The notes under the pieces were generated by a model. It had not been told where the DNA came from, did no database searches, and saw nothing but the letters and a program-made list of their open reading frames with translations. The position numbers were made by a program, and so were the translations under genes. DNA of 24,769 nt from Rhodocyclales bacterium (GTDB taxonomy: Bacteria; Pseudomonadota; Gammaproteobacteria; Burkholderiales; Rhodocyclaceae). Location: assembly GCA_021286885.1 (NCBI GenBank), contig JAJTBM010000003.1:1-24769 (forward strand), read 5' to 3'. Positions within the stretch are counted from its first letter, which is position 1, and each line of letters opens with the position of its first letter. Below are positions 8,782-24,224 of this stretch, piece after piece.

Positions 8782-8893
8782 GGCGTGGTGGCGATGCGGG
8801 TGATCTGATCGGTCAATGTCTGCCGGCGTGCGGCCCAGGCGTGATTTTAGGCGCCCGGCGCGAAAGTCGGCACGTTCCTGTTGCGCGTGCGGA

Positions 8894-8922: not shown

Positions 8923-8954
8923 CGGTGTCTTACTGATCCAGGAGGCACGCGGCC

Positions 8955-9371
8955 ATGACCCAGCGCCAGGAAGGCCGGCTCATTCGGTGGCACGAAGACA
9001 AGGGCTACGGTTTCATCGCCCCCGACGTGGGCGGCCCCGAAGTCTTTGTACACATCTCCGAATTCCCCCGGGACCAGCGCCGTCCCCAGTTAGGCGATCG
9101 GCTCACCTTTGTGGTGCTGAGCGAATCGGCCAGCCGCAAAAAAGCCGTGGAGCTGGACAATCTCTCGGCCTATCAGCGGGAGGTGCAGGCCACCCTGCCC
9201 CATGCGCCTCGGGGCCGTTTGGCGCCCCGCAAGAAGCCCTTTCCCTGGTGGTTGTTGATTCCGTTGGTGGTGGCCCTGGGCTTTGCCGGGCACCGTTATG
9301 GCCTGTTCGGCCCGCTTTCTTCGGGGGGGGCGCAGCCCTCCGCGACCGAAGCGCAAAGTCCGTCACGCTAA
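8955..9371 (+). CDS. Cold-shock-domain protein with C-terminal membrane segment
   Basis: Residues 4-70 form a cold-shock (OB-fold) domain with both RNA-binding motifs, RNP1 as KGYGFI and RNP2 as VFVHIS. It should bind single-stranded RNA or DNA. After a basic linker (RGRLAPRKKPF) comes one membrane segment (WWLLIPLVVALGFAGH, about residues 99-114) and a short Ser/Ala-rich tail. Related proteins often carry a DUF1294 membrane domain of several helices after the cold-shock domain; here only one helix is present. The positive residues before the helix suggest the nucleic-acid-binding part stays in the cytoplasm. Own promoter upstream; a GC-rich hairpin follows the stop. Confidence 0.88.
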   Translation: MTQRQEGRLIRWHEDKGYGFIAPDVGGPEVFVHISEFPRDQRRPQLGDRLTFVVLSESASRKKAVELDNLSAYQREVQATLPHAPRGRLAPRKKPFPWWLLIPLVVALGFAGHRYGLFGPLSSGGAQPSATEAQSPSR

Positions 9372-9377
9372 CGCGTG

Positions 9378-9408
9378 GCCCCGGGTGCCCGGGGCTCCAG
9401 TTTCTTGC
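9378..9408 (+). terminator. Probable Rho-independent terminator after the cold-shock gene
   Basis: GCCCCGG (9378-9384) pairs with CCGGGGC (9389-9395) around a 4-nt loop, six bases past the stop. The tail is only moderately T-rich (CCAGTTTCTTG), so efficiency is uncertain. Confidence 0.5.
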
Positions 9409-9462
9409 GTCTGTGCCGCTATTGGTTCAACCCACAGGCCAGCGATCAGACGGGAGAGGCGC

Positions 9463-10614
9463 ATGTCGACGACAGGAAGCATCATTCAGGGCCACAGTTG
9501 CGCCACCGACGCCCGGGAGGCGGTGCAGGCCTTTCATGCCAGCGTGGCCCAGCCGGACATGGCCGTGGTGCTGTTTTTCTGCTCCCCCGCCTATGATCGG
9601 GTAGCCCTGGCCGACGAAATGAACCGCGTGTTTGCCGGTGTTCAAGTGGTGGGGTGCACCACGGCGGGCGAGGTGGGCCCGGCGGGCTATCTGAATCACA
9701 GCCTCTCCGGGGCCAGTTTCTCTGGGGCCGCGTTTACCGCCGAGGCGGGTTTGATCGAACATCTCCAGAGCTTTGAAATTGCCGCCGGGCATCAATTTGC
9801 CGAAGGGTTGCTGGCCCAGCTGAGCGATCGCAAGCCGGGGGGCAACACCTTCGGCGTGCTGCTCATCGATGGGCTGTCCCGGCGCGAGGAGCCCGTCACC
9901 CATGCCCTCCAGGCCGGTTTGGGGGCCGTGCCCATGTTCGGCGGTTCAGCGGGCGATGGGCTGGATTTCCGCCAGACCTGGGTGTTCCACGGGGGCCGCT
10001 TTCATACCGATAGCGCGCTGTTGCTCTTGCTCGCCACGCCCTTGCCCTTCCATTTCCTGCGTACCCAACATTTTATTGCCGACGGGGAGCGTTTGGTGGT
10101 GACGGGGGTCGATGCGCCCAATCGGGTTGTATACGAAATCAACGGCTTGCCTGCGGTGGATGAATATTCGCGCCTGGTGGGGGTGAATCCCGAAGAACTC
10201 ACCCCGGGCCACTTTGCCAGCTGCCCGGTGGTGGTGATGATCGACGGCACCGATTACGTGCGCTCCATCCAGCACGCCAATCCGGATGGCAGCCTGACTT
10301 TTTATTGTGCGATTGACGAAGGCGTGGTGCTGCGGGTGGCCCACGGCGTTGATCTGATCGACAAGACCGAAGCGGCATTTGCCCGGGTTGAGCAGGATTT
10401 GGGCGGTCTGGAAGGGATGATCGTATGCGATTGCATCCTGCGTAATCTGGAAATCCAGCGTCTGGGCCGCCGGGATGCGGCTACCCAGCTTTTCCGCCGT
10501 TTCAAGGCCTTTGGCTTCAGTACCTACGGGGAGCAATTGGGCGGCGTGCATATCAATCAGACCCTGACCGGAATTGCCATCGGTAGCCGCCGGGAGAAGC
10601 AGCATGGTCAATGA
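9463..10614 (+). CDS. FIST sensory domain protein
   Basis: The 383-aa protein consists of a FIST_N domain (about residues 30-215) and a FIST_C domain (about 220-365). Landmarks are VVGCTTAGEVGP near residue 62, FGGSAGDGLDF near 160 and CDCILRNLEIQRLG near the C terminus. FIST domains are thought to bind small molecules such as amino acids and to pass the signal to partner kinases or cyclases. No membrane segment is present, so it is cytoplasmic. The start at 9463 has GGGAGAGG before it; a longer upstream frame overlaps the cold-shock gene. Its stop overlaps the kinase gene by 11 nt, so the two are very likely made together and work as a sensor/transmitter pair. Confidence 0.92.
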   Translation: MSTTGSIIQGHSCATDAREAVQAFHASVAQPDMAVVLFFCSPAYDRVALADEMNRVFAGVQVVGCTTAGEVGPAGYLNHSLSGASFSGAAFTAEAGLIEHLQSFEIAAGHQFAEGLLAQLSDRKPGGNTFGVLLIDGLSRREEPVTHALQAGLGAVPMFGGSAGDGLDFRQTWVFHGGRFHTDSALLLLLATPLPFHFLRTQHFIADGERLVVTGVDAPNRVVYEINGLPAVDEYSRLVGVNPEELTPGHFASCPVVVMIDGTDYVRSIQHANPDGSLTFYCAIDEGVVLRVAHGVDLIDKTEAAFARVEQDLGGLEGMIVCDCILRNLEIQRLGRRDAATQLFRRFKAFGFSTYGEQLGGVHINQTLTGIAIGSRREKQHGQ

Positions 10615-11680
10615 AATTCCTGCGGGCGACGAAACCGCCCTGCGGGCTGAAATCACCCGCCTCAACAAGATCGTGACCGCCCTGGTGAATCGGGCCGAGC
10701 GCGAAACCGGCGCCAAGCAGAGCCATTTTGGCCTGTTCCAGAACGCGGTGATGCTCGAAAACCAGGTGCGCCGCCGCACGGCCGAACTGGAAGAGGCGCT
10801 GCGCGAAAATGAGCGCATCAACCGGGATCTCACCCGGGAGCGGGAGGAACAGCGCATCCTCATCAAAAAGCTCGAAGAGGCTCACAATCAGCTGCTCCAG
10901 TCTGAAAAGCTCGCCTCCATCGGTCAGCTGGCCGCCGGGGTCGCCCACGAAATCAATAACCCCATTGGCTTCGTCAATTCCAATCTGGGTGCCCTGCAAA
11001 AGTATTGCGATTCCCTGCTTGGCCTGCTGGATCAATACGAAGGCCTGGAAGGCGAACTCAAGCCCGAATCCAGCACCGCCATTCGCAGTGCCAAGAAAAA
11101 GCTGGATCTGGATTTTCTGCGGGAAGATCTGGTGGACTTGATTGCCGAATCCATCGACGGCACCGACCGGGTGCGCCGCATCGTGCAGGATCTGCGCGAC
11201 TTTTCCCGTACGGGCGGCGCCGAATGGCAGCGGGCCGACGTGCACGCGGGCCTGGAAAGCACCCTCAACGTGGTTTCCAATGAAGTCAAATACAAGGCCG
11301 ACGTGGTGCGGGATTACGGCGAACTACCCGAAATCGAATGCCTGCCCCAGCAGCTCAATCAGGTCTTTCTCAACCTCCTGGTGAACGCCGCCCAGGCCAT
11401 CCCCGAGCGCGGCACCATCACCCTGCGCACCCGCTGCGAAGGGGGCTGGGTGCGCATCAGCATCATCGACAATGGCGCCGGCATCCCCCCGGAAATCCGC
11501 GAAAAGATCTTCGACCCCTTCTTCACCACCAAACCCATCGGCAAAGGCACCGGCCTCGGCCTCTCGGTGACTTACGGCATCGTGGACAAACACAAGGGCC
11601 GCATCGAGCTGGAAAGCGAAGTGGGTAAGGGTACCAGCTTCACCATCTGCCTGCCGGTGAATCGGCCGGAAGAGGGGTGA
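10604..11680 (+). CDS. Soluble sensor histidine kinase, partner of the FIST protein
   Basis: The 358-aa kinase has no membrane segment and no sensor domain of its own. Residues 45-105 form a charged coiled coil. The H box is [12 protein letters not shown] with the phospho-accepting His at residue 115. The ATPase part shows the N box ([12 protein letters not shown]), G1 (DNGAGIP), F box ([19 protein letters not shown]) and G2, all intact. The gene starts inside the FIST gene (11-nt overlap), with GGGAGAAG upstream. I infer that FIST acts as the input module in trans. No response regulator is encoded in the window, so the output must be elsewhere in the genome. Confidence 0.93.
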
Positions 11681-11713
11681 AATCCGGTACTCCCTGCCCT
11701 CTTCTCCTAGTAA

Positions 11714-12358
11714 TCAGCGCATGCTGAGCCGCTTGCACTCGGCTACGACTTGTTCTTCCCAGTTGTTGAGATTCTGATCGGCTTGCGGGGCGCGCTTCCG
11801 GACGCAATCTACCCACTTCTTGCTCGGATTGCCCGAGGTCAGTACCTGACCGAAGCCGTTGATCATGACATCGCCTTCTTCCAGAGGCGGTTGTGAGCCT
11901 TTAGCGAGCTTGCCGTTTTCATACAGGGCGCCATTTTCGTAGGCAAAGCTGGTGGAGCCACGACCATTCATCTTGGGCATGGTGACGGTGATTTTCCCAC
12001 CTTGCTGAACGGGCTTGATCAAGTCGCTGCATGTACCAAATTCTGGCGTGACGCGAACATCGCCCTGGACGGACGCCGAAACAAAGAGGTATTGCATGGG
12101 GCAGGCCATCCCGCCCGAATTGTTGGCCAGCAGGATGACGTCTCGATCACCAATCGCGTACTTTTGTTCAAAAGTGACCGAAAAGCTGGTGAAACTGGAT
12201 AGTTTTTTGTTGTTCAGCAGCAGAACCTGATCGCCAGTGGGCGTTTCGACAATCCGGAGTTTTCCGGCGCGAATCTGGATATTGTTTTCTTGCCCCGCAT
12301 GGGCGCTTATGGCGCCAAGTGTGAGCCCCGCAACGGCAACTAGAAAAAGCTTTTTCAT
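11714..12358 (-). CDS. Secreted hypothetical protein with signal peptide
   Basis: The 214-aa protein starts with a clear Sec signal peptide, MKKLFLVAVAGLTLGAISAHA, with likely cleavage after AHA at about residue 21. The mature part has four cysteines in two widely separated pairs (CPMQY and GTCSDL; WVDCV and VAECK), which could form disulphides in the periplasm. I do not recognise the family. The start at 12358 is fixed by the signal peptide; the frame extends upstream but without signal or ribosome site. It lies between the convergent kinase and the AlbA_2-type gene upstream on the same strand, separated from the latter by 119 nt with a hairpin, so it is probably transcribed separately. Confidence 0.75.
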   Translation of the reverse strand: MKKLFLVAVAGLTLGAISAHAGQENNIQIRAGKLRIVETPTGDQVLLLNNKKLSSFTSFSVTFEQKYAIGDRDVILLANNSGGMACPMQYLFVSASVQGDVRVTPEFGTCSDLIKPVQQGGKITVTMPKMNGRGSTSFAYENGALYENGKLAKGSQPPLEEGDVMINGFGQVLTSGNPSKKWVDCVRKRAPQADQNLNNWEEQVVAECKRLSMR

Positions 12359-12422
12359 GATAATCAAATGCCTGTAAATTGATTTTTCATAATATTGCCT
12401 TGGGGGCCGTATCGTCTGTGAC

Positions 12423-12444
12423 CTGCGGCATTGTGTGGCCGCAG
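12423..12444 (-). terminator. Hairpin downstream of the AlbA_2-type gene
   Basis: CTGCGGC (12423-12429) and GCCGCAG (12438-12444) form a perfect 7-bp stem with an 8-nt loop, 33 nt past the stop of the gene ending at 12478. There is no T-run after it on the minus strand, so it may be a weak terminator or only a transcript-end structure. Confidence 0.35.
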
Positions 12445-12477
12445 ACTTGATGCCATCGGTATTGTGCTCGGCTGGAT

Positions 12478-14559
12478 TTAAACGTCCGTGCTTGCGCTTG
12501 TATACGCCTGCTTCGGCGAATTCGCCGCGCTGAAGGCGGGTTGTAGGCTGCCTTCCTGGAGCATGGGCATCAGGGCGCGTTTGCGCAGGTCGTCGCTGTC
12601 CCGGTCCAGCGCCTGGGCGAGGACGCGCAGGCCCAGGTAGCGGCCCTGGCATAGGGCGAGGATGGTGTCCCGCAGCAGCGGGGCGCTCACCTTGCCCCGG
12701 CGGGAGACGGGCTCGCCCAGGCGGCGCAGCTCGGCCTGCAGGCTGGCGGGGAGGCTGTCCCAATCCAGATGCAAGATGCGCTCTTCCTGGGGGGGTGGGG
12801 GATCGATAGGAGCGGCACTGGGCGCTGCCGGCACTGGGGGCGAAGGGCGCGCTGCGGGCTTGGGTTGGAGCTCCGGTGATTTCAAGGCGGGTGCTGCAAT
12901 CTCCGGTGTTTTGCGCCCTGGGTCCGGTGTTATTGCTATCTGCTCCGGTGCTTTATGGGCTTTCTCCGGTGGTTTGGCGGGGTGCTCCGGTGTTTTTGGC
13001 GGGGCTTCGGCCAGGCTGAACAGGGCCGGCAGGGGCTGGGCGGCTGGGCTTTGGCCCGGGGCGCCGGTCTGGGGCGCGAGGGTGGCCAGGCTGTAATGGC
13101 GTGCGGAGACGGGGCCGTGGGCTTCGAGCAGGCCGGTGTGCACCAGGTGGGCCAGTAGGGCGGGCGCGTCGGCGGTGGTGGTGGGGCTCAGTTGGCGCAG
13201 TTGTTCCAGGCTGAATTGACCTTCCTGCTGGGCCAGCACCAGGGCGAGGCGGGCGGCCTCGGGCTGGTCGGTAAAGCGCGGGCCGAGCTGCTGGGTGAGG
13301 GCGTCCACTGCGGCGGCAGGCATCAGGCTGTGCATGCGCAGTTCCAGCAGGGTTTGCTCGGGTTCGATCTGTTCGTAGAGTTGGGGCGTGCGCCACTGCT
13401 GGGCGGCCCAGTTCTGGTGGATGCGCAGCAGGCCCGAGCCCGCGTGGTCGCCATAGCCCACCAGCTGGAACATGGTCTGGAGGCGCCGGTTGCGGCAGTC
13501 GCTATTGCCCCCCTGAATGGCCAGGGCGGGCGCAATCCGCATCCGGCCCGGGTTGCGAAAGCCGAACATGTCGGGCCGCTTGACCACCAGCACCGAAGCC
13601 CGACCGCTGAAATCCGCGTGGATCAGCGCGTTGGCCAGGGCTTCCCGCAGGGCTTCATGCACGGGGGTGTCATCCACCCGCTGCCCGCCCTGGAGCTGGA
13701 ACGGGACTTTCAGATCCGCCCCGAGCTTCTGGTAAACCTTGCGGAAAAAATCGTATACGTTGCCCGACCAGCTGCCATCGGGCACCAGCCGATCAACCCA
13801 GCGCCGTTCGGTGCGGGCGGCGGGGCGTTCCTGGTAGTCCAGCATGTAATGGGGCAGCGCGTCGCGGATCACTTCGCCCCGGCCAAACATCAGCAAACCC
13901 GCCAGACGCAGCCCGCTGTAGCCCTCTTCGCGGTTCTTGCCAAAGGCGCCGATCCGCTCCAGAAAGGCCTCCAGGGGCAGATCCGTCCAGGCGTGGCCGG
14001 GTTTGACTGCCGCAAAGCGGTTGCGATAGGCGGCCACCGTGTCCATGTCCAGATCGCTGAAATCAAAGCCCTTGAGCACCCGGTCGTCCCGGGCGCTTTC
14101 GACCTGCTCGGCCAGCAGGCGGCGCACGGTTTCATCGTCGGCGGGGGTGTCGCCCCCCGGGCGGCGCAGATAGGTGCCGCCAAACGGGTTGCTGCCCACA
14201 TGCACCGGGCGTTGCTGGCGGCTGGCGCGGGGCACCCGGATGCGCAACACGCTCTTGCCCTCCAGGGGCAGGGTGCTCACATCGCTTTCGGCCAGCAGGT
14301 TGTGGCTGATCTGGGCCCGGTTGTGCAGCCCGTCCCACAGGGCCGTGCGCAGCCATTCGGGTTCGGGCAGCCCGGTGGCCTGCAGCCGGCCATTGGGCAG
14401 GCGCTGGGCGCCCAGCAGGATCACCCCGCCGTAGGTATTGGCCAGCGCGCTATAGGTGCGCCAGAGGTCTTCGGGCAGCCCGTTATGGGCGGGCTTGCAT
14501 TCCAGCTCGGTGGCTTCGCCCAGCTGGGCGAGGATGGAGGTATCGCGGGGGGTGTTCAT
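12478..14559 (-). CDS. AlbA_2/Schlafen-domain ATPase-type transcriptional regulator
   Basis: The 693-aa protein has an N-terminal AlbA_2 (Schlafen-like) domain (residues 10-135, with ELECKPAHNG and ALANTYGGVILLG) and a C-terminal-type HATPase domain further on (LREALANALIHADFSG, then FRNPGRMRI and GYGDHAGSGL near residues 290-385). This is the RecG-like/AlbA_2 regulator architecture. A helical, winged-helix-like region follows (about 415-500). A low-complexity linker then repeats Pro-Glu every 7-14 residues (about 525-565), before a last helical domain. The ATG at 14559 has AGGGA upstream; a frame extension to 14685 is not convincing. Such proteins are often assigned to stress or defence regulation; the target here is unknown. 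Confidence 0.82.
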   Translation of the reverse strand: MNTPRDTSILAQLGEATELECKPAHNGLPEDLWRTYSALANTYGGVILLGAQRLPNGRLQATGLPEPEWLRTALWDGLHNRAQISHNLLAESDVSTLPLEGKSVLRIRVPRASRQQRPVHVGSNPFGGTYLRRPGGDTPADDETVRRLLAEQVESARDDRVLKGFDFSDLDMDTVAAYRNRFAAVKPGHAWTDLPLEAFLERIGAFGKNREEGYSGLRLAGLLMFGRGEVIRDALPHYMLDYQERPAARTERRWVDRLVPDGSWSGNVYDFFRKVYQKLGADLKVPFQLQGGQRVDDTPVHEALREALANALIHADFSGRASVLVVKRPDMFGFRNPGRMRIAPALAIQGGNSDCRNRRLQTMFQLVGYGDHAGSGLLRIHQNWAAQQWRTPQLYEQIEPEQTLLELRMHSLMPAAAVDALTQQLGPRFTDQPEAARLALVLAQQEGQFSLEQLRQLSPTTTADAPALLAHLVHTGLLEAHGPVSARHYSLATLAPQTGAPGQSPAAQPLPALFSLAEAPPKTPEHPAKPPEKAHKAPEQIAITPDPGRKTPEIAAPALKSPELQPKPAARPSPPVPAAPSAAPIDPPPPQEERILHLDWDSLPASLQAELRRLGEPVSRRGKVSAPLLRDTILALCQGRYLGLRVLAQALDRDSDDLRKRALMPMLQEGSLQPAFSAANSPKQAYTSASTDV

Positions 14560-14626
14560 GGGGTGTTTCCCTGCATGGGATACGCGGTTGCGGCATGGGC
14601 TGCGTATCGGTATCCATAAAAGCGTT

Positions 14627-14659
14627 GGAGGATCTGTCGCCCAGGGCGAAAGATCCTCC
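14627..14659. repeat. Long near-perfect inverted repeat in the intergenic region
   Basis: Arms GGAGGATCTgTCGCCC (14627-14642) and GGGCGAaAGATCCTCC (14644-14659) pair over 15 of 16 positions around a single central A. It sits between the radical SAM gene and the AlbA_2 gene, both minus strand. No T-run follows directly. It could be a transcription terminator/attenuator or an operator for the AlbA_2-type regulator. Confidence 0.6.
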
Positions 14660-14718
14660 GTGCCCGGCATGGGGCGCTCAGGCACAACAGAAAAAAATGA
14701 AAGGTGGGTGGCAGGGCC

Positions 14719-16608
14719 TCAGCCCAGCGCCTTCTCCACAAAATGCCGGCCCACCCGGGTGCGGGGCACCTTGCCGGTGAACCAGTAGCGCACATCCTCA
14801 TCCAGGCCAATGCCGTGCATGTAGTTGTAGAGCGCCTTGTTGAGGGCCACGCCCAGGGTGTCGTGATCAACGCCGGTGGGGTCGATGAAGCCCACATCGT
14901 TTTTGGCAAAGCTGATGGGGGGCAGGGGGCGCAGCTGGATGCCGTATTCATCCGGGTTCTGGCCCACCGGGGAGTGGACGGTGCACACAAAGCGGTGGAA
15001 GAAGCCCGATTGAATGCAGCCCGCCGCAAACAGCTGGCGCACGTATTCGAGGGCATCCACGGTGTCCTGCACCGTCTGGGTGGGGAAACCGTACATCAGG
15101 TAGGCGTGCACCAGAATGCCCGCGTCCGAGAAGCTGCGGGTCACGCGGGCCACCTGCTCCACCGAAACGCCCTTTTTCATCAGCTTGAGCAGCCGGTCTG
15201 AGGCCACTTCCAGCCCGCCCGACACGGCGATGCAGCCGCTATCCGCCATGAGCTGGCACAGCTCGGGGGTGAAGGACTTTTCAAAGCGGATATTGCCCCA
15301 CCACGATAGGGTGAGATTGCGCCGCAAAATCTCTTCAGACAGCCCGCGCAGGGCCTTGGGCGGGGCGGCTTCATCCACAAAGTGAAAGCCCGTGTGGCCG
15401 GTTTCGGCGATGATGGTTTCGATCCGGTCGGCCAGCAGGCTGCTGCTGGCGCCGTCGTAGCGGCCAATGTAATCCAGCCCCACATCGCAGAAGCTGCATT
15501 TCTTCCAGTAGCAGCCATGGGCCACGGTCAGCTTGTTCCAATGCCCGTCCGACCACAGCCGGTGCATGGGGTTGAGCATGTCCAGCACCGCCAGATAACG
15601 ATCCAGCGGCAGCCCGTCCCAGGTGGGCGTGCCCACCTCGGCAAAGGGCACGTCCGGCTCCACCAGGTTGATGTAACGCACCTGCCCGGTATCCGGCTCG
15701 CGCCGGTAGGTGCGCACCAGGCGCGAGGCCCCGCGTTGGCCCGCCAGATGTTCGAGCAGGGCCAGCAGGGGCCGTTCGCCGTCGTCCAGGGTCACAAAAT
15801 CAAAGTAATCGAATACCCGGGGCTCGCTCAGTTCGCGCAGCTCGGTATTGGCAAACCCGCCGCCCAGCACCGTCACGATGGCCGGGTTGTGGGCCTTGAT
15901 GCACTGGGCGATTCTGAACGCGCCATACACCGAGCCCGGAAAGGGCACCGAGAGCAGCACCACCTGGGGCGCATGCTCGGCCAGGGCCGCGTGGGTGAGC
16001 TGGCTCAGGTAGTCATCCACCAGGGTGGGCGGCTCCGCCAGGGCCCGGGCGAGGGGCTCGAAACTGGGCTGGGCCATGGCCAGGGATTCGGCATAGCGCA
16101 CAAACTCGAAGCGCGGGTCCACCGCCTCCCGCAGGATGTCGGCCAGATCGTTGAGGTAGAGCGTCGCCATGTGGCGCGCCTTGTCCTGCACCCCCAGGGC
16201 ACCAAACGCCCAGGCCAGCGGATCGCCCCCGTCCGGATCAACGTATACATCCAGCGCATCAAAGCGCGGCCCTTCGGGCAACAGCCCCCGGCTCGCAATC
16301 CGGTGCGCCAGACTCGTATCGCGCCCCTGCAGAAACGCAATCGCCGGCTCCACCGTGCGCCGGTAATGGGCAAAGTGCTCCAGAAAGCCCTGGAGCAGCG
16401 GGCTGCGCTTGCGCGCCGGCATGGCCTCGATCCGGCCCTTGATGTCATCCAGCCCAGGCCCCGAAAACAGCCTGAGCACCAGGCCCAGCGCCAGATCGGC
16501 CTGCACCGCATCCACCCCCCGGCTACGCAGAAAGCCGGTCAGGTAAGCCGTCGAAGGATAAGGAGTATTGAGCTGGGTCATGGGCGGGATCAGCGACAGA
16601 ACCCGCAT
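14719..16608 (-). CDS. B12-binding-type radical SAM protein
   Basis: The 629-aa protein begins with MRVLSLIPPMTQLNTPYPS, the usual start of B12-binding radical SAM enzymes. The middle has the Rossmann-like cobalamin-type fold (VLLSVPFPGSVYGA, VLGGGFANTELREL, FVTLDDGERPLLALL). The radical SAM core follows with the cluster cysteines at residues 366, 371 and 374 (GCYWKKCSFC), then VSGGLEVASDRLL and AYLMYGFPTQT. The cysteine spacing is C-x4-C-x2-C instead of the canonical C-x3-C-x2-C. It uses SAM and a 4Fe-4S cluster for radical chemistry; substrate unknown. I placed the start at 16608 (GGAGC upstream); the frame is open to 16809 but that part overlaps the transposase remnant and is poor coding. 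Confidence 0.87.
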   Translation of the reverse strand: MRVLSLIPPMTQLNTPYPSTAYLTGFLRSRGVDAVQADLALGLVLRLFSGPGLDDIKGRIEAMPARKRSPLLQGFLEHFAHYRRTVEPAIAFLQGRDTSLAHRIASRGLLPEGPRFDALDVYVDPDGGDPLAWAFGALGVQDKARHMATLYLNDLADILREAVDPRFEFVRYAESLAMAQPSFEPLARALAEPPTLVDDYLSQLTHAALAEHAPQVVLLSVPFPGSVYGAFRIAQCIKAHNPAIVTVLGGGFANTELRELSEPRVFDYFDFVTLDDGERPLLALLEHLAGQRGASRLVRTYRREPDTGQVRYINLVEPDVPFAEVGTPTWDGLPLDRYLAVLDMLNPMHRLWSDGHWNKLTVAHGCYWKKCSFCDVGLDYIGRYDGASSSLLADRIETIIAETGHTGFHFVDEAAPPKALRGLSEEILRRNLTLSWWGNIRFEKSFTPELCQLMADSGCIAVSGGLEVASDRLLKLMKKGVSVEQVARVTRSFSDAGILVHAYLMYGFPTQTVQDTVDALEYVRQLFAAGCIQSGFFHRFVCTVHSPVGQNPDEYGIQLRPLPPISFAKNDVGFIDPTGVDHDTLGVALNKALYNYMHGIGLDEDVRYWFTGKVPRTRVGRHFVEKALG

Positions 16609-16739
16609 CGAACCCGCTCCAGCAATCGCGCCCGAGGCGCCAGCAGCGTGCAGCATGGTGTGGCAGGGGCCTGGACATCCACCAGACCCGAAGGAACAGC
16701 TTAGGGGCCGCCATGATACCGGGCGGAGGGGGGGCGCTG

Positions 16740-16937
16740 TTAGTCGGGCGTGAGCAGCAAACGCTTCTCGGGCCGCACGGCCAGTTTTTCGTCCACTTGC
16801 TGAACCCATCGCCGTACGGTGGATTCGGTCAGGTTCATATCCTTGGCAAGCTGACTGACCGAGAGTCCCTGGTTCTTGATGGTGTTGACGACCTCAAGCT
16901 TGAAGCTCGGGTCAAAAGTTCTACGACTGCGTTTCAT
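16740..16937 (-). pseudogene. IS3-family transposase OrfA remnant
   Basis: The 65-aa product starts MKRSRRTFDPSFKLEVV and continues through a helix-turn-helix (GLSVSQLAKDMNLTESTVRRW), as IS3-family OrfA proteins do. It stops after LLLTPD, where full OrfA proteins continue into a leucine-zipper-like coil of about 30 more residues. There is no OrfB. It is therefore a truncated remnant and cannot transpose by itself. It lies exactly between the high-GC backbone and the island. Confidence 0.8.
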
Positions 16938-16990: not shown

Positions 16991-17030
16991 TGGCCATTAA
17001 CGGCCATTAACGGCTACTAATGGCCATATT
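16991..17030 (+). repeat. Four tandem decamers, candidate upstream activator sites
   Basis: Four consecutive 10-bp units read TGGCCATTAA, CGGCCATTAA, CGGCTACTAA and TGGCCATATT. The 10-bp period places them on one face of the helix. TGGCCATTA (16991-16999) and TAATGGCCA (17018-17026) are also inverted copies. They end 60 nt before the sigma54 promoter, the usual distance for sites bound by a sigma54 activator, and such an activator is encoded at the end of the operon. Confidence 0.7.
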
Positions 17031-17089
17031 TGAGATTGATTCCATTGGGTTAGTGTATGATTTTCATGTAAATACTCTAAAAAAATGGC

Positions 17090-17105
17090 TGGCACAAAGC
17101 GTGCA
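17090..17105 (+). promoter_or_regulatory. Sigma54 (RpoN) promoter of the helicase-PLD-CARF operon
   Basis: TGGCACAAAGCGTGCA matches the sigma54 consensus TGGCACG-N4-TTGCA. The invariant GG (17091-17092) and GC (17103-17104) are separated by exactly 10 nt. The predicted transcript starts around 17115-17117, which places the Shine-Dalgarno (17121-17127) and the ATG at 17133 right after it. The match is 10 of 12 consensus positions by eye. Confidence 0.72.
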
Positions 17106-17120
17106 CATAGCAAGCCAACA

Positions 17121-17127
17121 AAGGAGG
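17121..17127 (+). promoter_or_regulatory. Strong ribosome-binding site deciding the helicase start
   Basis: AAGGAGG lies 5 nt before the ATG at 17133. The upstream in-frame ATG at 17085 has no such site and lies before the predicted sigma54 transcript start, so it is not used. Confidence 0.85.
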
Positions 17128-17132
17128 ATCTT

Positions 17133-18401
17133 ATGGCACGCCTTTTCTACATGTCGCTCCCTGGCGTAGGCGACTGGAACACCGTGATGCGGCAATCAGG
17201 CGCACAACTAGCCCCGTACCGCACGTACCTGATGACAGCCAAGAAGGCAGCGGATAACCGAGCGCTTTCACTTTCTTGGCGATTGCCGACCCCGGAAGAG
17301 AGGAAAGAACTTGACCGCCGACAGCAGGAGTCAATCATTCAGGCGAAGCAGCGGGCCGAGAAGGCTCAGCGGCGTCGTGACCGTCAGGCTCTGCAGTCCG
17401 TGCCGTCCGGAGAATGGGTCATTCTGGAACCACGACCGGATCGCAGCGAAGAACCTGATACCACGTTTGACGCATTCCTAGATGCCAAGGAAGTTTCGGA
17501 ACGGAAACCTGCCTTTCGCGGCAAAGCCTCCAGTTGGCATCCAGAAAGCAGGATTGGCGTAAATGCCAGTGATCGGGAGGCTCTCGCCTTACTTCTCTCA
17601 CGTCTGCCAACTGACATTCCCCCTACGGCGAATAAGGAGGGTGATGAGGTCAAATCCGGCACCCCGCTGCTATTCCTGCGGCCCAATACCTGGCCACTGG
17701 AGTGCCAGAGCAAAATATTGGAGGCGCTGGAGGACCGTCCTTCCCCTCGCTTAGCCCCTCTCCTTCGACTAGTCTCGACTCGGCCACAATGGAACCAGTT
17801 CGAAGGCGACTACGTGTCGGATTCTGACTGGGTGTTCCTACGCCGGGAAAGAGATGGTGCGCTGAGGGATGGCACGACTGAGCAGCGCCAGTTCGTACGC
17901 TGCGCCCTCGGAACCCCGGACTTCGCCATACTGGAAGGCCCCCCGGGTTCCGGCAAGACCACGGCCATCTGTGAGCTGATCGTTCAACTTGCACGGGCCG
18001 GAAAGCGCGTACTGTTGGTTGCATCCACCCACGTTGCGGTAGATAACGTCCTGGAACGACTCATCGAATGGCAGGACGAGGCCGATGAAAAGCTGGTCAT
18101 GCCCATTCGCATCGGCGATGAAAGTAGTGTCACCTCGCCCAGCATCAACGCCTGGGTGCTACGGAATCTGCAGCGTACCTGGCGTGGCGAAATACTCGAT
18201 CACTTGGATCGGCCCAGAGATGTCAAGCCAGAGGGTGCGGAAGCCCGGAAGATTCTGCGGGAGGCGCTCGCCCCAGAAGGTAAAGAATCTGCCATCGCGC
18301 GTCTGCTCTTGGATGCATCAAACCTCGTGGCATCCTGCAACACCCAGCAATCAAGGATGCGGGAAAGAATCGCACAGACATCGAACCTTTCGATTATCTG
18401 A
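17133..18401 (+). CDS. Helicase, N-terminal part as the frame stands
   Basis: The 422-aa product has a charged N-terminal region with a coiled-coil-like stretch (EERKELDRRQQESIIQAKQR, about residues 51-70) and no recognised domain up to residue 250. Then come TTEQRQFVRCALG (Q-motif-like), Walker A GPPGSGKTT and motif Ia (VLLVASTHVAVDNVLERL). Past the frameshift the last 25 residues are out-of-frame sequence ending TSNLSII. It lacks Walker B and all later motifs and cannot hydrolyse ATP as a helicase alone. The MARLFYMSLPGVGDW start region resembles no named domain I know. Confidence 0.7.
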   Translation: MARLFYMSLPGVGDWNTVMRQSGAQLAPYRTYLMTAKKAADNRALSLSWRLPTPEERKELDRRQQESIIQAKQRAEKAQRRRDRQALQSVPSGEWVILEPRPDRSEEPDTTFDAFLDAKEVSERKPAFRGKASSWHPESRIGVNASDREALALLLSRLPTDIPPTANKEGDEVKSGTPLLFLRPNTWPLECQSKILEALEDRPSPRLAPLLRLVSTRPQWNQFEGDYVSDSDWVFLRRERDGALRDGTTEQRQFVRCALGTPDFAILEGPPGSGKTTAICELIVQLARAGKRVLLVASTHVAVDNVLERLIEWQDEADEKLVMPIRIGDESSVTSPSINAWVLRNLQRTWRGEILDHLDRPRDVKPEGAEARKILREALAPEGKESAIARLLLDASNLVASCNTQQSRMRERIAQTSNLSII

Positions 18402-18442
18402 TCCTGGACGAGGCATCCAAGACCACTTTCACCGAGTTCCTA

Positions 18443-19912
18443 GTGCCCGCCATCTATGCTAAGCGATGGGTGGTAGTGGGCGACCGGCGCCAACTCTCGC
18501 CCTACGTGGAGGAGCAGGATCTGGCTGAGAATATTCGCGGCCTGCTCCCGGATGAGGTGGCGCAAGCCATAACGCATAGCTTTCTGGCTTCTTCTGCAAT
18601 TCCTAAAGGGATGCAAAAGCGCTCATTGGTTGCCATCAATTCCGATGAAGAGGCCCGATGGATAATTGCGGAGGCAGAGGCGCGCAAGGTCGCTGTGATC
18701 AACCTAGACAGCGTCAAACCCAGTGATGCATGCGCTGAGCTAACCTATGCCGACATCGTGACTGGAACAGCCGACACCCTAGATGCCTGGCAGCATCGTT
18801 TGCCCGGCGACCTCCAAGTGACGGCGGGCAATTTGCCAGAGCTTCCAGACTGGGAGGCTCACCGTCGCGCCCTCGGTACGGAAAGGGATCAGGAAACGCC
18901 CTCCTGGGCCTCCGAAGTCGCCTGGCGTCAAATTCGTACCTACGAACTCAGATACAACGAACCCGAGCAAAAACGCTACCTCACCGAGTTACATGAACTC
19001 CTGCCCAAAACACTTGGGGAGACGCCGTTGCCGGGGCAGCGTCGAGCACGGACATTGAAGGACGGGGAGACACAAATGCCGATTGATGTCCTTAAAGAGG
19101 ATCTGGAACATATGCGGCGGGTGGCTATGCCGTCAATCCTGGAGATACTCCAGGTTGGTGCCGGCTCGCTATGGGAAGACAAGACCGCTCTAACCGATGG
19201 ACTACCAAAGCCTGTTCTGGCCGAGCGCATGGTGTCGCTATCGTTCCAGCATCGAATGCACCCCGATATAGCCGCTTTTCCTCGGGCACAATTCTATGCG
19301 CAGGATGGCCTGCTTAAGGACGCAACCGATATGGACAAAGCTCGGGAATGGAGCTACCGACGCTATGCCCGCCGGGCGGCGTGGCTGGAAATATCGCCAA
19401 AACAACAGGGCCGCGGACGCGGGCAAACTGGAAACAGAAATCCGGCCGAAGCTGACGCGGTGATGGGCGAGTTGCGGGAATTCGTGAAATGGGCAGGTTC
19501 AACACCGCATCCCGGCAAGAATCCAGACGCCCCATGGGAGGTAGCCGTTCTGACCTTCTACCGGGGCCAGGAAAAGGAACTTCGCCAGCGCCTGCAAAAT
19601 GAGTGCAAGCAGCCCGGAAATACCCGGAATTTTCATCTCGGCGAGGGGCGCGTGCGTGTCACGCTGTGCACTGCCGACCGCTTCCAGGGACACGAAGCAG
19701 ATCTGGTTCTGCTGTCTTTCGTGAAAACCGGGTCGGTGGGCTTTCTGAACAGCCCGAACCGCCTCAACGTAGCGCTAACCCGCGCTCGTTATCAAGTTGT
19801 CCTGATCGGCAACCGTCGCTGGATGGCATCCGACAAATGCCGTTCCGAACTTATCAATTCCCTCGGCACCTCCTCTTGCTATGCCCGAGATATCGGCTGG
19901 GAAAAATCATGA
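18443..19912 (+). CDS. Helicase, C-terminal part (motifs III-VI)
   Basis: The open frame from the first ATG (18443) encodes 489 aa, but the same frame carries the Walker B DEAS at 18407-18418, before that ATG. Visible motifs are III (VVVGDRRQLSP), IV (FQHRMHPDIAAF), V (TADRFQGHEADLVLLSF) and VI (LNVALTRARYQVVLIGN), all intact and typical of Upf1-like helicases. A large insertion between motifs III and IV (about residues 45-260) holds no domain I recognise. The ATG at 18443 has no ribosome site, so this half is probably not made on its own. The stop overlaps the next start (ATGA). Confidence 0.7.
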   Translation: MPAIYAKRWVVVGDRRQLSPYVEEQDLAENIRGLLPDEVAQAITHSFLASSAIPKGMQKRSLVAINSDEEARWIIAEAEARKVAVINLDSVKPSDACAELTYADIVTGTADTLDAWQHRLPGDLQVTAGNLPELPDWEAHRRALGTERDQETPSWASEVAWRQIRTYELRYNEPEQKRYLTELHELLPKTLGETPLPGQRRARTLKDGETQMPIDVLKEDLEHMRRVAMPSILEILQVGAGSLWEDKTALTDGLPKPVLAERMVSLSFQHRMHPDIAAFPRAQFYAQDGLLKDATDMDKAREWSYRRYARRAAWLEISPKQQGRGRGQTGNRNPAEADAVMGELREFVKWAGSTPHPGKNPDAPWEVAVLTFYRGQEKELRQRLQNECKQPGNTRNFHLGEGRVRVTLCTADRFQGHEADLVLLSFVKTGSVGFLNSPNRLNVALTRARYQVVLIGNRRWMASDKCRSELINSLGTSSCYARDIGWEKS

Positions 19913-21084
19913 TTCGTCTTTCTCGCACCATACCTATCAATTGCTTCGATGTAGAGGCCACCGTCGCCGTAGGCCGTCAGCGCCCGGAGTTCCTCGCGGT
20001 AGCCCAGCTTGCCGCGGACCTTAAACGCCCCATTTCTTCACGCGATGTTCTGCGCGAACTTCTCGGACCACGACCAGAGGTTCTCGGTCGGCGTGTAATT
20101 GAACGATGCATAGCACTCGGACTACTGAACAGCACTGACTCCAGAAACAGCGAAGCCGAGCTGTCTGAAGCAGGTGCCCTTGCCCTGGAACATGGCGAAG
20201 TTCTGGTGCCCGAGGAGGGGGTCTGGCGTTTTTATCTGGTGGACGACCCGCTCGTACCCAACAAACTCCTGCATGCGGAACGACTGGAGAGCGACTCGGT
20301 GAAGAAGGAGCGGGATGCGGCCAAGAACGCCCGCAACAGGGGCGATCGCCTGATTCGGTCGGAACACCCCCCTGAAATACTGAGTAGCTGTTGCGGTGAT
20401 TTGCCGTCCAAGTCAGCTCACCACGGGCAACTGTTCCAACTCACGGAACTAGCCAAGTCTGGCACCTCTGGGCCAAAAGGGTCGCTGAGACTGGATCTAA
20501 CTTGGGATCGAGACTCCGACGCCATGCTCAACCTGTCTGGAACGCTACCGTCAGACAGTCAAGTGCGAAACCCGAGGTCGGTAGATGTGAACATTGAGCT
20601 CCCGGAAGTATTTGATGATCTGGATTACCAGACCGTCTGGACCAACTTGGTCAGCCTCTCGACGGATACCCCTCTTGAAGAGCTTGACGAATGGTTTTCT
20701 ACTGCGGGCGAAGCGGTGATCCCATTGGCCTTCGATGCAATGTCGGAAAACGAGCACAAGGGATTCCGGAGGAACGTGGCGGTGCCCAGATCGAAATGGA
20801 AGCAACTCGGTGCCTTCGATGCGACGAATCTGGAAAACACCCTCATTGTTCCCGCTAGCGATACCGATGCCCAAGTCTGGCTTGAGTGGTTGCACTGGAA
20901 TTCCATCAACGACTACGTAACACCTCATCAGATCGAAGAATTGGGGAAAGATCAACTCGCTCGGTTTCCCTACCATAAGCCTCGCCCCTTGAGCCCGTCA
21001 GCGCTTCTTGCCCAGGCACTCACCACCAGAAATGAGCGCTCCTTCTTCCTGCTTGCCACCTCCGACCTTGGACTCTGGAGCTAG
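19909..21084 (+). CDS. Unrecognised operon protein between helicase and PLD nuclease
   Basis: I do not recognise this 391-aa protein. It starts MIRLSRTIPINCFDVEAT; residues 25-75 (AVAQLAADLKRPISSRDVLR and the helix after it) could be a winged helix, but this is a weak impression. The middle is hydrophilic and Ser/Asp-rich, and the last third is acidic with many Trp and Leu residues. No signal peptide or membrane segment is seen, so it is cytoplasmic. The start overlaps the helicase stop by 4 nt and its stop is 3 nt before the PLD gene, so it is an obligate member of the operon. An adaptor between helicase and nuclease would fit, but nothing shows it. Confidence 0.8.
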   Translation: MIRLSRTIPINCFDVEATVAVGRQRPEFLAVAQLAADLKRPISSRDVLRELLGPRPEVLGRRVIERCIALGLLNSTDSRNSEAELSEAGALALEHGEVLVPEEGVWRFYLVDDPLVPNKLLHAERLESDSVKKERDAAKNARNRGDRLIRSEHPPEILSSCCGDLPSKSAHHGQLFQLTELAKSGTSGPKGSLRLDLTWDRDSDAMLNLSGTLPSDSQVRNPRSVDVNIELPEVFDDLDYQTVWTNLVSLSTDTPLEELDEWFSTAGEAVIPLAFDAMSENEHKGFRRNVAVPRSKWKQLGAFDATNLENTLIVPASDTDAQVWLEWLHWNSINDYVTPHQIEELGKDQLARFPYHKPRPLSPSALLAQALTTRNERSFFLLATSDLGLWS

Positions 21085-21087
21085 ACC

Positions 21088-22617
21088 ATGATTCCCCCCA
21101 TTTCTCGCGAAGAAACCCTCGATCTGACCCAGGAAGCGCTTGGTCCCGGTTGGTTGCGTAGATTCCCGACCAATCCAGAGGCTCATGAGATTGCCGGCCC
21201 CGGTGTATGGCGTACCGGCCCACAGCTTCTGTTCCGCAATGAACTCGTCGCAGCCATGGAAAGGGCAAGGGAAGTCATTCTCCTTTCATCCTTCCTGCTC
21301 GCCGACGACGCCCTCGCTCAGGCCATGATCCAGGCAGCGGGTCGAGGAGTACGAGTTTACGTGCTCACCGCCTCGGAGCAGCGCATCGGAAAGGCTCTTC
21401 GTGAGGACGAGGTCTTTGAGCAAAGGATGGTGGAGCAACACAAGAAACTACTGGAGAACCTTGCCGGCAAAGTACTGCTCCGTTCAGCCGAGCACATCCA
21501 TGCAAAATTCCTGGTGGTCGACCCACAACTGAAACGCGGTGGGTACGCGTGGCTATCTACCGCAAACTTTAACAAAGCACTGGAAGACAGCGTGGAGTTA
21601 GGGGTGATGCTCAATGCCGACGGAGTCCGCGAGCTGGCCGCCTGTTTCAACTGGGCGTTTTGGTCCGAAGCCGAACGAGAACTTCGTGGCCCCAATCGCC
21701 TTGTCGAGATCAAGCCGAACCACCCAGCTGCGCCGCCGCGGCCATCTCACGGGGCCATCTTTGCTACCTTGAGGGACAGCCCAGTCCTACGCGAGCAGCT
21801 TATTACCTTGATAAGAGGGGCCCGAAAGGAAATTCTGGTGGCGAGTTATGGCATCGCGGTTGACCACGTCGCCGTGGGCGAACTTGCAGAGGCGGCAAAG
21901 CGGGGGGTCCAAGTCACTGTATTGACCCGTCCCCGCCCTGCGGTTGCCGGCGGCGTTGCCTTGCTTGCCTCCGCTGGAGCCTTGATTTTCGCCCACGACA
22001 AGCTTCACGCCAAAGCGCTTGTAGTGGACGGGAAGGCGCTGGTCATGTCGGCGAACCTTGAGGCACAGGGTCTCGATAAGGGCTTTGAGATCGGAGCCAT
22101 GCTGCCTGCCGACACCTCACTTGCGGTGGAAAAAACCTTGCGCGACTGGGTATCGTCCTTTCCGTGGATATACCGGGCTGACGCGACACGAGGCGAGCAT
22201 CTTGGCGACTTCTGCCCGGCTGAAGTGGGGCTGCGTGGCGGCGTCGTGAAAGTGGTTGATTCCTACTATCAAGCTGCGGCCGATGTAATTGCGGCAGATG
22301 CGCTCAAACTTTCAGAAGCGCCGCCTCCCACATTGAAACCATCACATGCTCCCCGAGAACTGCCGAAGACAGTGAGGGTTACTTGGAATGTCCAGCCGCC
22401 AAGGCTTCCGAAAGGGGCTAAGGAGCAGTTCCAGGTGATAGAACGTGAAAAACAGGGACAGAACGGAAAGTCCAATAAGGAGAAGGAAAGCGTTTCCTAT
22501 GTTCCTCCTGTGTATGAATTGATGGGCAAACGTTACGTGCTCTTGCGCAACATCGAGGAGACAGACAAGGCGCAACGGCTTGCTACCGAACTTGGGGCCA
22601 AGGTGGTGCTGCCATGA
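21088..22617 (+). CDS. Phospholipase-D-family protein with two HKD motifs (probable nuclease)
   Basis: The 509-aa protein has two complete PLD domains. HKD1 is HIHAKFLVVD (His138, Lys140, Asp145) followed by STANF; HKD2 is KLHAKALVVD (His307, Lys309, Asp314) followed by SANLEAQG. Each domain begins with a strand typical of the fold (REVILLSSFLLAD; KEILVASYGIAVD). Two HKD motifs in one chain make a complete active site through a covalent histidine intermediate. There is no signal peptide, which favours a nuclease acting in the cytoplasm over a lipase. Residues 395-509 form an additional Lys/Pro-rich tail that could bind nucleic acid. Coupled to the next gene by an ATGA overlap. Confidence 0.88.
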   Translation: MIPPISREETLDLTQEALGPGWLRRFPTNPEAHEIAGPGVWRTGPQLLFRNELVAAMERAREVILLSSFLLADDALAQAMIQAAGRGVRVYVLTASEQRIGKALREDEVFEQRMVEQHKKLLENLAGKVLLRSAEHIHAKFLVVDPQLKRGGYAWLSTANFNKALEDSVELGVMLNADGVRELAACFNWAFWSEAERELRGPNRLVEIKPNHPAAPPRPSHGAIFATLRDSPVLREQLITLIRGARKEILVASYGIAVDHVAVGELAEAAKRGVQVTVLTRPRPAVAGGVALLASAGALIFAHDKLHAKALVVDGKALVMSANLEAQGLDKGFEIGAMLPADTSLAVEKTLRDWVSSFPWIYRADATRGEHLGDFCPAEVGLRGGVVKVVDSYYQAAADVIAADALKLSEAPPPTLKPSHAPRELPKTVRVTWNVQPPRLPKGAKEQFQVIEREKQGQNGKSNKEKESVSYVPPVYELMGKRYVLLRNIEETDKAQRLATELGAKVVLP

Positions 22618-24224
22618 CGACTGGGGATCGAGTCGTATTGGATGCTGTACTCGTCAGCTGGGTAAGCGTCAATCACCGGGCTGCGCCGCTCCTCACCGCC
22701 CTGCATGCCCCCAAGAGTCACCTCCGTTCCAGGGTTCGGTGCGTGTATATCTGCTGGCGCGAAGCTCCTGCCCCAGATGGTGATCGCGAACGTGAGGCTT
22801 TGCGGGAGACAATTAGTGAGCTTCGTAGAGAGCTCGCTTCTCATTGCCCAGAGATTGTGAAGTTGCCTTGGAAGACGAGCGCATCACCCACGGATCATGC
22901 CGCGATTCGATCATTTGCTGAGCAGGTACTGATTCGCGTCCGAGGTGACAATCCCGATTCTCTCATCGCAGTTCACTTATCGCCAGGGACTCCTGCAATG
23001 CACGCCGTATGGCTGACGCTTGGTGCTACGGGTTTCATATCGGGACCAATGGAACTGATACAGACCTCTGACATCCGCGGCCAAGTGGCGGGCCAACCGC
23101 CTGTGCAGGTGATTCAGTTTGATCTGGATACCTGGCTTCGTCGGTACCGAACGGCGAGTCCCCAAAAGACAGGAACAGACGATGACGGCCACCTCTGGGA
23201 CCCAGCCACGATCAAGAGTCCTGCCCTTCGCGAGGCTCTGCGTAGGCTTACCGAATGGGCTCCTCTGAGAGTTCCAGTGCTATTGATCGGAGAGCGGGGT
23301 ACAGGCAAGACCACGCTCGCTAATTTCCTGCGCGCCATGAGTCCATTTCAGAAGGCACAGGGATCGTCCTGGCCGACAGTTGTTTGTGGCCAATTTCGGG
23401 TGAATCCACAACTCGCACGGTCAGAGCTGTTCGGTCACGCTAAGGGAGCGTTCACCGGTGCAACGAGGGCTCGCGAGGGCCTACTGAAGAAGGCTGACGG
23501 TGACACTTTGTTTTTCGATGAAATCGCCGACCTGGATCAGGATACTCAGCGCTTGCTCATGGCCGCCATTGAAGGGCGAGGCTTTCAGAAGCTCGGAGAC
23601 GGGGCAGTAGAGTATTCGAACTTCCGGCTGGTTTGCGCCACAAACCGTCCGCTTACTGAGCTTCGCGATGCAATACTTGATTCAGATTTCCTTGATCGCA
23701 TTGCCATCTTCGTTCTTAAAGTGCCAGCATTACGGGAGTGCAGGGAGGATTTGCCGGATGCTTGGCGGCGCGTACTGACGGCTACGACACGGAACGCGGG
23801 TGTTTCACCTGAGGGATGGCAAACGTATATTGCGCACCCAACTATGCTGGCAGCACTTGCCAACCATCCGTTGAGCGGGAACTTCCGAGACCTCCAGCGT
23901 GCGGCCTATCACTTGCTCTCTGCACTGTGTGCGGCACGTCCCAAGGAACAGGTTCTGGAGGATGCCATTGCGGCTCTAGGCCCGCGTCTGTCACCGCAAC
24001 GAGCACTGCCAAACGTCCCCGACCTTACTGCATTGCTACCGGTTGACGACTTTCGTACTCAGGTACAAGACTACGAACGCGCATGGCTGAACGCTGCACT
24101 TTCGAAGGCAGAGGGCAACAAATCTGAGGCAGCACGGCTACTCGGAATTCCCCGTAAGACATTTGAAAACCGACTACGCGTATGTAGCAGTGAAGATTCG
24201 GATGGCAGCGAATTAGGTGACTGA
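22614..24224 (+). CDS. CARF-domain sigma54-dependent activator (RtcR-like architecture)
   Basis: The 536-aa protein has an N-terminal CARF-type domain (1-180) with the signature HLSPGTPAMHAVW at 121-133, the same type of motif as in RtcR. The AAA+ domain follows: Walker A GERGTGKT (226-233), the sigma54-contacting GAFTGA (278-283) and Walker B DTLFFDEIADL (297-307). A Fis-type helix-turn-helix ends it (NKSEAARLLGIPRKTFENRL, 502-521). CARF domains bind cyclic oligoadenylates or, in RtcR, RNA ends with a cyclic phosphate; the ligand here is open. As the last gene of an operon with a sigma54 promoter it should activate its own operon. Unlike RtcR loci, no rtcB or rtcA is adjacent. It lies on the same strand as its targets, so some basal transcription must supply it. 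Confidence 0.9.
   Translation: MTTGDRVVLDAVLVSWVSVNHRAAPLLTALHAPKSHLRSRVRCVYICWREAPAPDGDREREALRETISELRRELASHCPEIVKLPWKTSASPTDHAAIRSFAEQVLIRVRGDNPDSLIAVHLSPGTPAMHAVWLTLGATGFISGPMELIQTSDIRGQVAGQPPVQVIQFDLDTWLRRYRTASPQKTGTDDDGHLWDPATIKSPALREALRRLTEWAPLRVPVLLIGERGTGKTTLANFLRAMSPFQKAQGSSWPTVVCGQFRVNPQLARSELFGHAKGAFTGATRAREGLLKKADGDTLFFDEIADLDQDTQRLLMAAIEGRGFQKLGDGAVEYSNFRLVCATNRPLTELRDAILDSDFLDRIAIFVLKVPALRECREDLPDAWRRVLTATTRNAGVSPEGWQTYIAHPTMLAALANHPLSGNFRDLQRAAYHLLSALCAARPKEQVLEDAIAALGPRLSPQRALPNVPDLTALLPVDDFRTQVQDYERAWLNAALSKAEGNKSEAARLLGIPRKTFENRLRVCSSEDSDGSELGD

Follow-up and report, generated by a model that had tools for sequence, protein, structure and literature searches.

The window analysed here, a 24,769-nucleotide (nt) stretch of DNA from a Rhodocyclales bacterium (assembly GCA_021286885.1, contig JAJTBM010000003.1), carries in its right third (positions 16992–24224, + strand) an operon in which repeats and a σ54 promoter are followed by four abutting genes, encoding in order a UPF1-like superfamily 1 (SF1) helicase, a protein of 391 amino acids (aa) denoted u391, a PLD nuclease with two HKD motifs, and a CARF-AAA+-Fis activator. 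This four-gene unit is real, conserved and mobile. From the sequences of its members, we propose that it constitutes a stand-alone, mobile and autoinducible helicase-adaptor-nuclease system, most likely antiviral, a reading to which we assign a probability of about 0.6. Defence is thus regarded as its most likely purpose, and RNA repair or surveillance as the main rival. The operon consists of the following features:

16992–17027, + strand: enhancer-like repeats, resembling upstream activating sequences, with three overlapping palindromes of the GGCC-N6-GGCC type in 10-bp phase (Tandem Repeats Finder)
17090–17104, + strand: σ54 (−24/−12) promoter, TGGCAC-N5-GTGC (weighted consensus score)
17133–18401, + strand: UPF1-like SF1 helicase, part 1, with an unnamed N-terminal region and the Walker A motif EGPPGSGKTT (Pfam, homologues)
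18329–19912, + strand: UPF1-like SF1 helicase, part 2, with the Walker B motif DEASK and the AAA_12 domain (Pfam, homologues)
19909–21084, + strand: u391, unnamed family, with a predicted winged helix (residues 22–96) and a long strand (residues 2–23) ahead of it
21088–22617, + strand: PLD nuclease, both HKD motifs intact (H138/K140/D145 and H307/K309/D314)
22614–24224, + strand: CARF-AAA+-Fis σ54 activator of the RtcR_PspF1 family, with the CARF motif SPGTPAMH (residues 123–130) and GAFTGA (residues 278–283)

The helicase and u391 genes share 4 nt, as do the PLD and activator genes, and 3 nt separate the u391 stop from the PLD start. An earlier note on this DNA had described four overlapping or 3-nt-spaced genes at this place and on this strand; all four are present, and their Pfam families agree with the naming. 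The tandem decamers that it had reported correspond to a repeat of period 10 in 3.6 copies at 16992–17027, and the promoter that it had placed ahead of the operon to a GG-N10-GC site at 17090–17104.

The unit was compared across 17 loci, comprising the window, seven loci found via a GTDB genome scan, five from genome samples and four on plasmids. In 11 of the 17, all four genes are whole and share the same order and strand. These whole loci lie in genomes of Sorangium cellulosum (L002), Pseudomonas nabeulensis (L004), a Myxococcales metagenome-assembled genome (L005), Pseudomonas sp. LD120 (L007), and a Stutzerimonas-like source (L010), in the genomes with L016, L017 and L018, and on plasmids of Vibrio rumoiensis (L020), the alphaproteobacterium Pontibrevibacter nitratireducens (L021) and Vibrio aerogenes (L023). 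Five further loci are consistent with this arrangement, though degraded or truncated at the edge of a contig: the window itself; L008 from Pectobacterium, with all four genes fragmented; L003 and L006, where contig ends cut the unit; and L022, on a Klebsiella pneumoniae plasmid (5064–11726), where IS21 genes split u391 and the PLD and CARF-σ54 genes persist. The two u391 pieces of L022 are 95–96% identical to Vibrio rumoiensis u391, no helicase match was found in that stretch, and the Klebsiella PLD-CARF pair had no match in 5,426 E. coli genomes searched with megablast only. As 11 whole loci elsewhere show the same order of the four genes, the gene set is more than a chance assembly; the recurrent co-occurrence that the earlier note had looked to for support is therefore observed, both on plasmids and in bacteria that are only distantly related. 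Moreover, for pairs of loci the identities of the four proteins are correlated, at 0.94–0.98 over 28 pairs from eight loci and at 0.82–0.97 over the 12 pairs within clades.

The remaining locus, L019, is a different system, in which the gene after a related helicase encodes 556 aa, the initial portion being similar to u391 (25% over 335 residues); the locus has no CARF gene, and its PLD match is only marginal (E 0.001). This locus (5246–15103) comprises an IetA-like AAA ATPase, an MkoA-like helicase, the 556-aa protein, a 705-aa unknown protein and a radical SAM protein. The 556-aa protein has many homologues of like length, one of them, also of 556 aa, from Pseudomonas sp. A-1.

In a phylum sample of 398 genomes, with scoring limited to the few top candidates of each genome, the u391 profile matched two genomes, the window's own and G023, and the PLD profile (E ≤ 1e-15) matched these same two. 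The CARF-σ54 profile scored 856 and 641 bits in the two genomes and did not exceed 242 bits in 11 further ones; both the PLD and the CARF profiles were built from members of the unit. Neither the u391 nor the PLD family was seen outside the unit in these 398 genomes, two genomes being few, and the dispersal into unrelated contexts that the earlier note had named as a counter-indication was not found for these two families. A distant exception to the exclusivity of u391 is L019, where a u391-like protein accompanies the related helicase in a different gene context. The u391 profile additionally matched 4 of 398 genomes in a family sample, including G023 and L019, and 2 of 300 in the window's order, including the window's own genome. 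Among 72,556 plasmid records, the PLD query retrieved four, three with the whole unit and one with its remains; all four were inspected. The helicase query matched 129 plasmid records, and the best three, which were those inspected, are three of the four PLD records.

The second gene, u391, defines a protein family without a name. It has no match in Pfam, NCBIfam or PADLOC (E ≤ 0.1) or in PHROGs (E ≤ 0.01), and its sequence retrieves nothing significant from the PDB (best E 1.9). A confident structure model predicts that u391 begins with a winged helix; the model beyond residues 22–96 gave no Foldseek match in the PDB at E ≤ 0.001, from which no new fold is claimed. The C-terminal end LGLWS is kept in near relatives. 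The u391 of L010 is 95% identical to one from Stutzerimonas nitrititolerans, and a sub-threshold Pfam match of this L010 protein to HVO_A0261_N (E 0.041) was disregarded. Searches of IMG/VR, phage and plasmid collections with u391 returned no relative, and the three plasmid modules were recovered only via the helicase and PLD queries.

The window PLD protein contains PLDc_2 in two stretches (Pfam), and both HKD motifs are intact, in line with the double-HKD assignment made earlier. Its best-scoring models are DrmC (PADLOC, E 1.1e-23) and the PLD part of MkoB; against the NCBIfam DrmC model it scores 88.8 bits, with a cut-off of 133. The window helicase belongs to the UPF1-type SF1 family (AAA_11/AAA_12, PF13086/PF13087 in Pfam), and the solved structure closest to the intact L007 helicase is UPF1 (E 9e-26). 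The family named in the earlier note is thus upheld, but the reading frame is broken, which that note does not mention. The helicase is split over two frames (17133–18401, then ~18329–19912, the listed open reading frame (ORF) start at 18443 being mechanical), and part 1 leaves the family frame after ~18329. Set against eight intact homologues, with the junction read by eye, the window helicase proves to have lost a short stretch between Walker A and Walker B, including a motif of five conserved residues, and to change frame at that point. Programmed frameshifting was considered and rejected, since conserved residues are missing and not the frame alone. The source genome is a draft (611 contigs, 80.5% complete), and the deletion may be a true mutation or an assembly fault. 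Owing to the broken helicase gene, the window copy of the operon is probably inactive; intact helicase copies are present in other bacteria.

No searched library names the four-gene set, and no paper describing it was recognised in the open-access literature searched. The earlier note could not name this combination, and no named system was found to match all four proteins. The unit shares parts with CoCoNuT, Mokosh, DISARM and Rtc systems and satisfies the full definition of none. The Mokosh-type composition suggested earlier holds insofar as the SF1 helicase and PLD cores score to MkoA and MkoB of Mokosh type I, but the likeness is loose and the profiles are covered only in part. The intact helicases of L007 and L010 match MkoA with E 4.8e-81 and 2.7e-84 (PADLOC), over profile positions 505–1080 of 1112 in L010 and, as the best stretch, 607–834 in L007, and the L007 PLD protein covers 312–562 of the 610 MkoB positions, the PLD core alone. 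The start of the MkoA profile (7–287) corresponds to a kinase, as the kinase encoded beside L005 matches there; no kinase family was found in three intact helicases, and the best stretches of the helicase matches begin at profile position 505 or later. The matches therefore fall short of near-full-length, a measure distinct from PADLOC's own coverage rule. Furthermore, u391 and the CARF-σ54 gene, which distinguish the unit from Mokosh, are present in every whole locus.

The unit could alternatively be a named helicase-PLD defence system, a Mokosh type I or DISARM derivative to which genes have merely been added, as its best PADLOC matches (MkoA, DrmC and MkoB) would allow. DISARM combines the helicase DrmA and DrmB with DrmC, and the PLD protein of the unit scores best to DrmC models. 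However, among the helicase, PLD and CARF genes of L007 and L010 that were scanned, none matched DrmA or DrmB at E ≤ 1e-5, and the matches listed for the five window proteins (for two of them the best 25 of 30 and 25 of 27) include neither. Together with the partial MkoA and MkoB matches, the missing kinase and the fact that u391, absent from all libraries, is kept as strictly as the other genes, this makes such a derivative improbable.

The unit also resembles type II and III CoCoNuTs, in which a UPF1-like SF1 helicase (CnuH) is followed by a winged-helix gene and nuclease effector (CnuE) (PMC11090510). In the protein after CnuH, an elongated winged-helix part and a nuclease are joined, the nuclease having two PLD domains in type III-C, and RtcR homologues adjoin CoCoNuTs at the operon 5' end (PMC11090510). 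The unit likewise places a predicted winged-helix protein after a UPF1-like helicase, and could on these grounds be a CnuHE-type relative, an effector half working in trans with McrBC encoded elsewhere. In contrast to CoCoNuTs, the winged helix and the PLD nuclease are encoded by separate genes in all 11 whole loci, in all of which the CARF-σ54 gene is fourth and not at the 5' end, and neither McrB nor McrC, whose presence in the operon defines a CoCoNuT, is among the four genes. The McrC family (PF10117) was detected in only one of nine genomes carrying the module, although a degenerate CnuC could be missed and no search was made for McrB; that match lies on a 29,846-nt contig, and L005 on a different one of 78,393 nt. 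We consider this relationship highly improbable. In principle, the unit also resembles Hachiman HamAB, in which a helicase sensor controls a nuclease partner; its helicase and nuclease families differ from those of the unit. The passages considered of a BREX survey do not mention RtcR or UPF1 (PMC12839542).

The fourth protein carries Sigma54_activat and HTH_8 (Pfam) and matches the PADLOC model RtcR_PspF1--CARF_AAA_HTH (PDLC01994) over nearly its full length, CARF, AAA+ and HTH domains included (E 1.7e-140, residues 11–522 of 536, profile positions 4–466 of 468); the L010 activator matches it with E 4.7e-150. The CARF motif SPGTPAMH is found in eight of nine aligned proteins and reads SPGTPASH in L004, and GAFTGA at residues 278–283 corresponds to the σ54-contact loop. 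This protein, the σ54 site and the upstream palindromes resemble an RtcR arrangement. Nevertheless, its score of 197.4 bits (E 4.5e-58) lies below the true-RtcR cut-off of 650 in NCBIfam, and the activator sits with a helicase/nuclease set and not with rtcBA.

As to what the activator senses, RNA ends appear, by analogy with RtcR, the likeliest class of signal. RtcR is a regulator of RNA repair whose CARF domain binds tRNA fragments; oligoadenylates do not activate it, and neither do tRNA fragments alone in vitro (PMC9650030). Members of the RtcR family are described as mostly lacking the positive residue that follows strand 4 and was proposed as the nucleotide contact in other CARF domains (PMC4012209). 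Cyclic oligoadenylate was rejected as the general ligand, both because RtcR is not activated by oligoadenylate (PMC9650030) and because seven of the nine module genomes had no match to Csm1- or Cmr2-type Cas10, the types searched. The unit is thus not generally an ancillary effector of type III CRISPR systems, a role possible in the two remaining genomes, G000 (the window's), with a Csm1-type protein, and G1054, with Cmr2-type ones.

This kinship to RtcR underlies the main alternative, that the unit serves nucleic-acid repair or RNA surveillance: an RtcR-like switch would sense damaged RNA and induce the helicase and the PLD protein for clearing or processing, as with rtcBA. The link of RtcR to tRNA fragments and RNA repair (PMC9650030) and the relatedness of the activator to the RtcR model favour it, as does the setting of L010 among housekeeping-like genes (by eye). 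RtcB was detected in six of the nine genomes and not found in three, in which the module might replace it. However, the unit occurs patchily (the u391 profile in 2/398, 4/398 and 2/300 genomes), is carried by plasmids and is found in decayed copies, features more typical of a defence function than of a maintenance one, and defence genes adjoin five loci. On balance, a repair function seems rather unlikely, though less so than either relationship to a named system.

The arrangement upstream of the operon indicates that the CARF-σ54 gene very probably switches its own operon. Candidate σ54 sites were scored against the σ54 consensus with weights of our own choosing (maximum 19.5). The window site scores 18, a value reached in 0.33% of random 65-position windows, and lies 43 nt ahead of the helicase start. 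Of 13 loci, 11 have a site scoring at least 16.5 within 90 nt of the helicase start; that of L018 stands at −57, that of L010 at −81 and the other nine between −43 and −54. Such a score is attained by 2.6% of random windows and 3 of 133 other ORF starts, both backgrounds being taken from nine loci. The 13 loci exclude L003, L006, L019 and L022, in which the helicase start is missing or the system differs; the helicase starts of L002, L005 and L010 were shifted from the mechanical ORF start to the homologue-aligned Met, and that of L008 was set by eye. With the unshifted starts, 7 of 10 loci had a site of at least 16.5, between −36 and −53.

Additionally, palindromes whose 4-bp arms flank a 6-bp spacer occur farther upstream, in one of two forms, in 8 of the 13 loci. 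GGCC-N6-GGCC, with at most one mismatch, is present in five of six clade-1 loci in two to four copies (0.1–0.5 expected), and GGGT-N6-ACCC in three of the other seven (L010, L018 and L021) in one or two copies (0.02–0.11 expected). The window palindromes lie at −141, −131 and −121 relative to the helicase start. Most neighbours among multi-copy palindromes are 10 or 20–21 bp apart and therefore on the same helix face. RpoN is encoded in all nine genomes. These findings agree with the earlier suggestion that a sensing protein induces the effector genes, and since the CARF gene occupies the fourth place in the very operon that it appears to control, positive feedback would follow. The fourth gene is not always the last transcribed, because in L010 a further same-strand gene begins 6 nt downstream of it.

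Twelve neighbourhoods (the 11 whole loci and the window) were inspected in part, with partial profile scans of their flanks, and defence genes were found beside five of them: type I restriction-modification at L002, a C5 methylase at L004, Azaca ZacA and ZacC at L016, a partial TmtA/NOV_C-like match at L017, and, by annotation alone, cas1 and cas2 at L023. Of the expectation that the four genes would co-occur mostly in defence islands, the co-occurrence is seen in 11 whole loci, and defence genes were seen beside only 5 of the 12 partly inspected neighbourhoods. Two proteins each were scanned with PADLOC in the flanks of the window and of L018, with no clear defence gene; for the seven neighbourhoods without one, annotations or translations were also read by eye. 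At L023, cas2 is accompanied by a very long cas1-annotated gene (3,012 nt), perhaps a fusion (9418–12707). L004 also encodes a LuxR/MalT-type regulator (74–2998), whose weak PADLOC CARF3 match is limited to its DNA-binding end. The protein kinase at L005 (2324–4489), ~2.6 kb upstream of the unit, matches PD-T4-6, mad6 and the kinase part of MkoA; kinases are common in Myxococcales, and it was therefore not counted as a defence gene.

Within the window, the upstream neighbour of the operon is a radical SAM protein (14719–16809, − strand) with a weak, sub-cut-off B12-binding match. A small ORF (16740–16937, − strand), IS3-type OrfA-like by eye, faces away from the enhancer repeats, its start lying ~55 nt from them; this suggests an insertion-sequence remnant at the operon edge. 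Farther upstream are a protein with Schlafen AlbA_2 and RecG-type HATPase_c_4 domains (12478–14685, − strand), with no PADLOC match at E ≤ 1e-5, and a FIST-domain protein followed by a histidine kinase (9283–11680, + strand).

Several observations weigh against an antiviral, self-switching system. The unit has no known phenotype, and no record in the searched viral and phage collections carries u391. Seven of the 12 partly scanned neighbourhoods show no clear defence gene: six proteins flanking L007 and one each flanking L010, L020 and L021 had no PADLOC match, and three scanned at L005 yielded only the protein kinase of uncertain meaning. The genes surrounding L010 look, by eye, like housekeeping genes, and one of them begins just 6 nt downstream. 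The window genome encodes a Csm1-type Cas10 (663 bits, G000:C194:3595-6129), probably part of a type III-A CRISPR system. Regarding the promoter, L023 has a weaker σ54 site (15.5 at −54) and L021 no good site there; the palindrome motif was derived by inspecting the very sequences scored, both exact forms are missing from 5 of the 13 loci (L005, L016, L017, L020 and L023), and the clade-2 locus L018 also bears one GGCC-N6-GGCC at chance level (0.31 expected). Finally, the structure model of the whole helicase, from an eight-sequence alignment, was poor (mean predicted local distance difference test score 56) and was not used, so that the proposed helicase-u391 contact rests on analogy.

For the antiviral system that we favour, we infer the ligand, the binding, the protein contacts, the target and the phenotype as follows. 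At rest, the CARF domain would hold the AAA+ domain off, as in RtcR. Upon infection or translation damage, the activator would be freed by a ligand derived from RNA, probably a broken molecule ending in a 2',3'-cyclic phosphate, and could then bind the phased palindromic enhancers seen ~120–170 bp ahead of the helicase start and drive the σ54 promoter, raising its own synthesis along with that of the effectors. The induced UPF1-like helicase would move on RNA or single-stranded DNA, the winged helix of u391 may couple it to the two-HKD PLD protein, and the latter would cut nucleic acid of the invader or of the cell. More specifically, and only tentatively, at somewhat less than even odds, the unit may be a separate, unnamed defence system: an McrBC-free machine of UPF1 helicase, winged-helix adaptor and PLD nuclease under an in-operon CARF-σ54 lock, in which infection-broken RNA leads to self-amplifying nuclease induction, carried on chromosomes of Gammaproteobacteria and Myxococcota and on plasmids of Vibrio and an alphaproteobacterium.

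If this is true, the unit's own RNA-sensing σ54 switch would show how a costly nuclease stays off until it is needed. The unit also provides a compact four-gene setting for asking what RtcR-type CARF domains sense beyond RNA repair.

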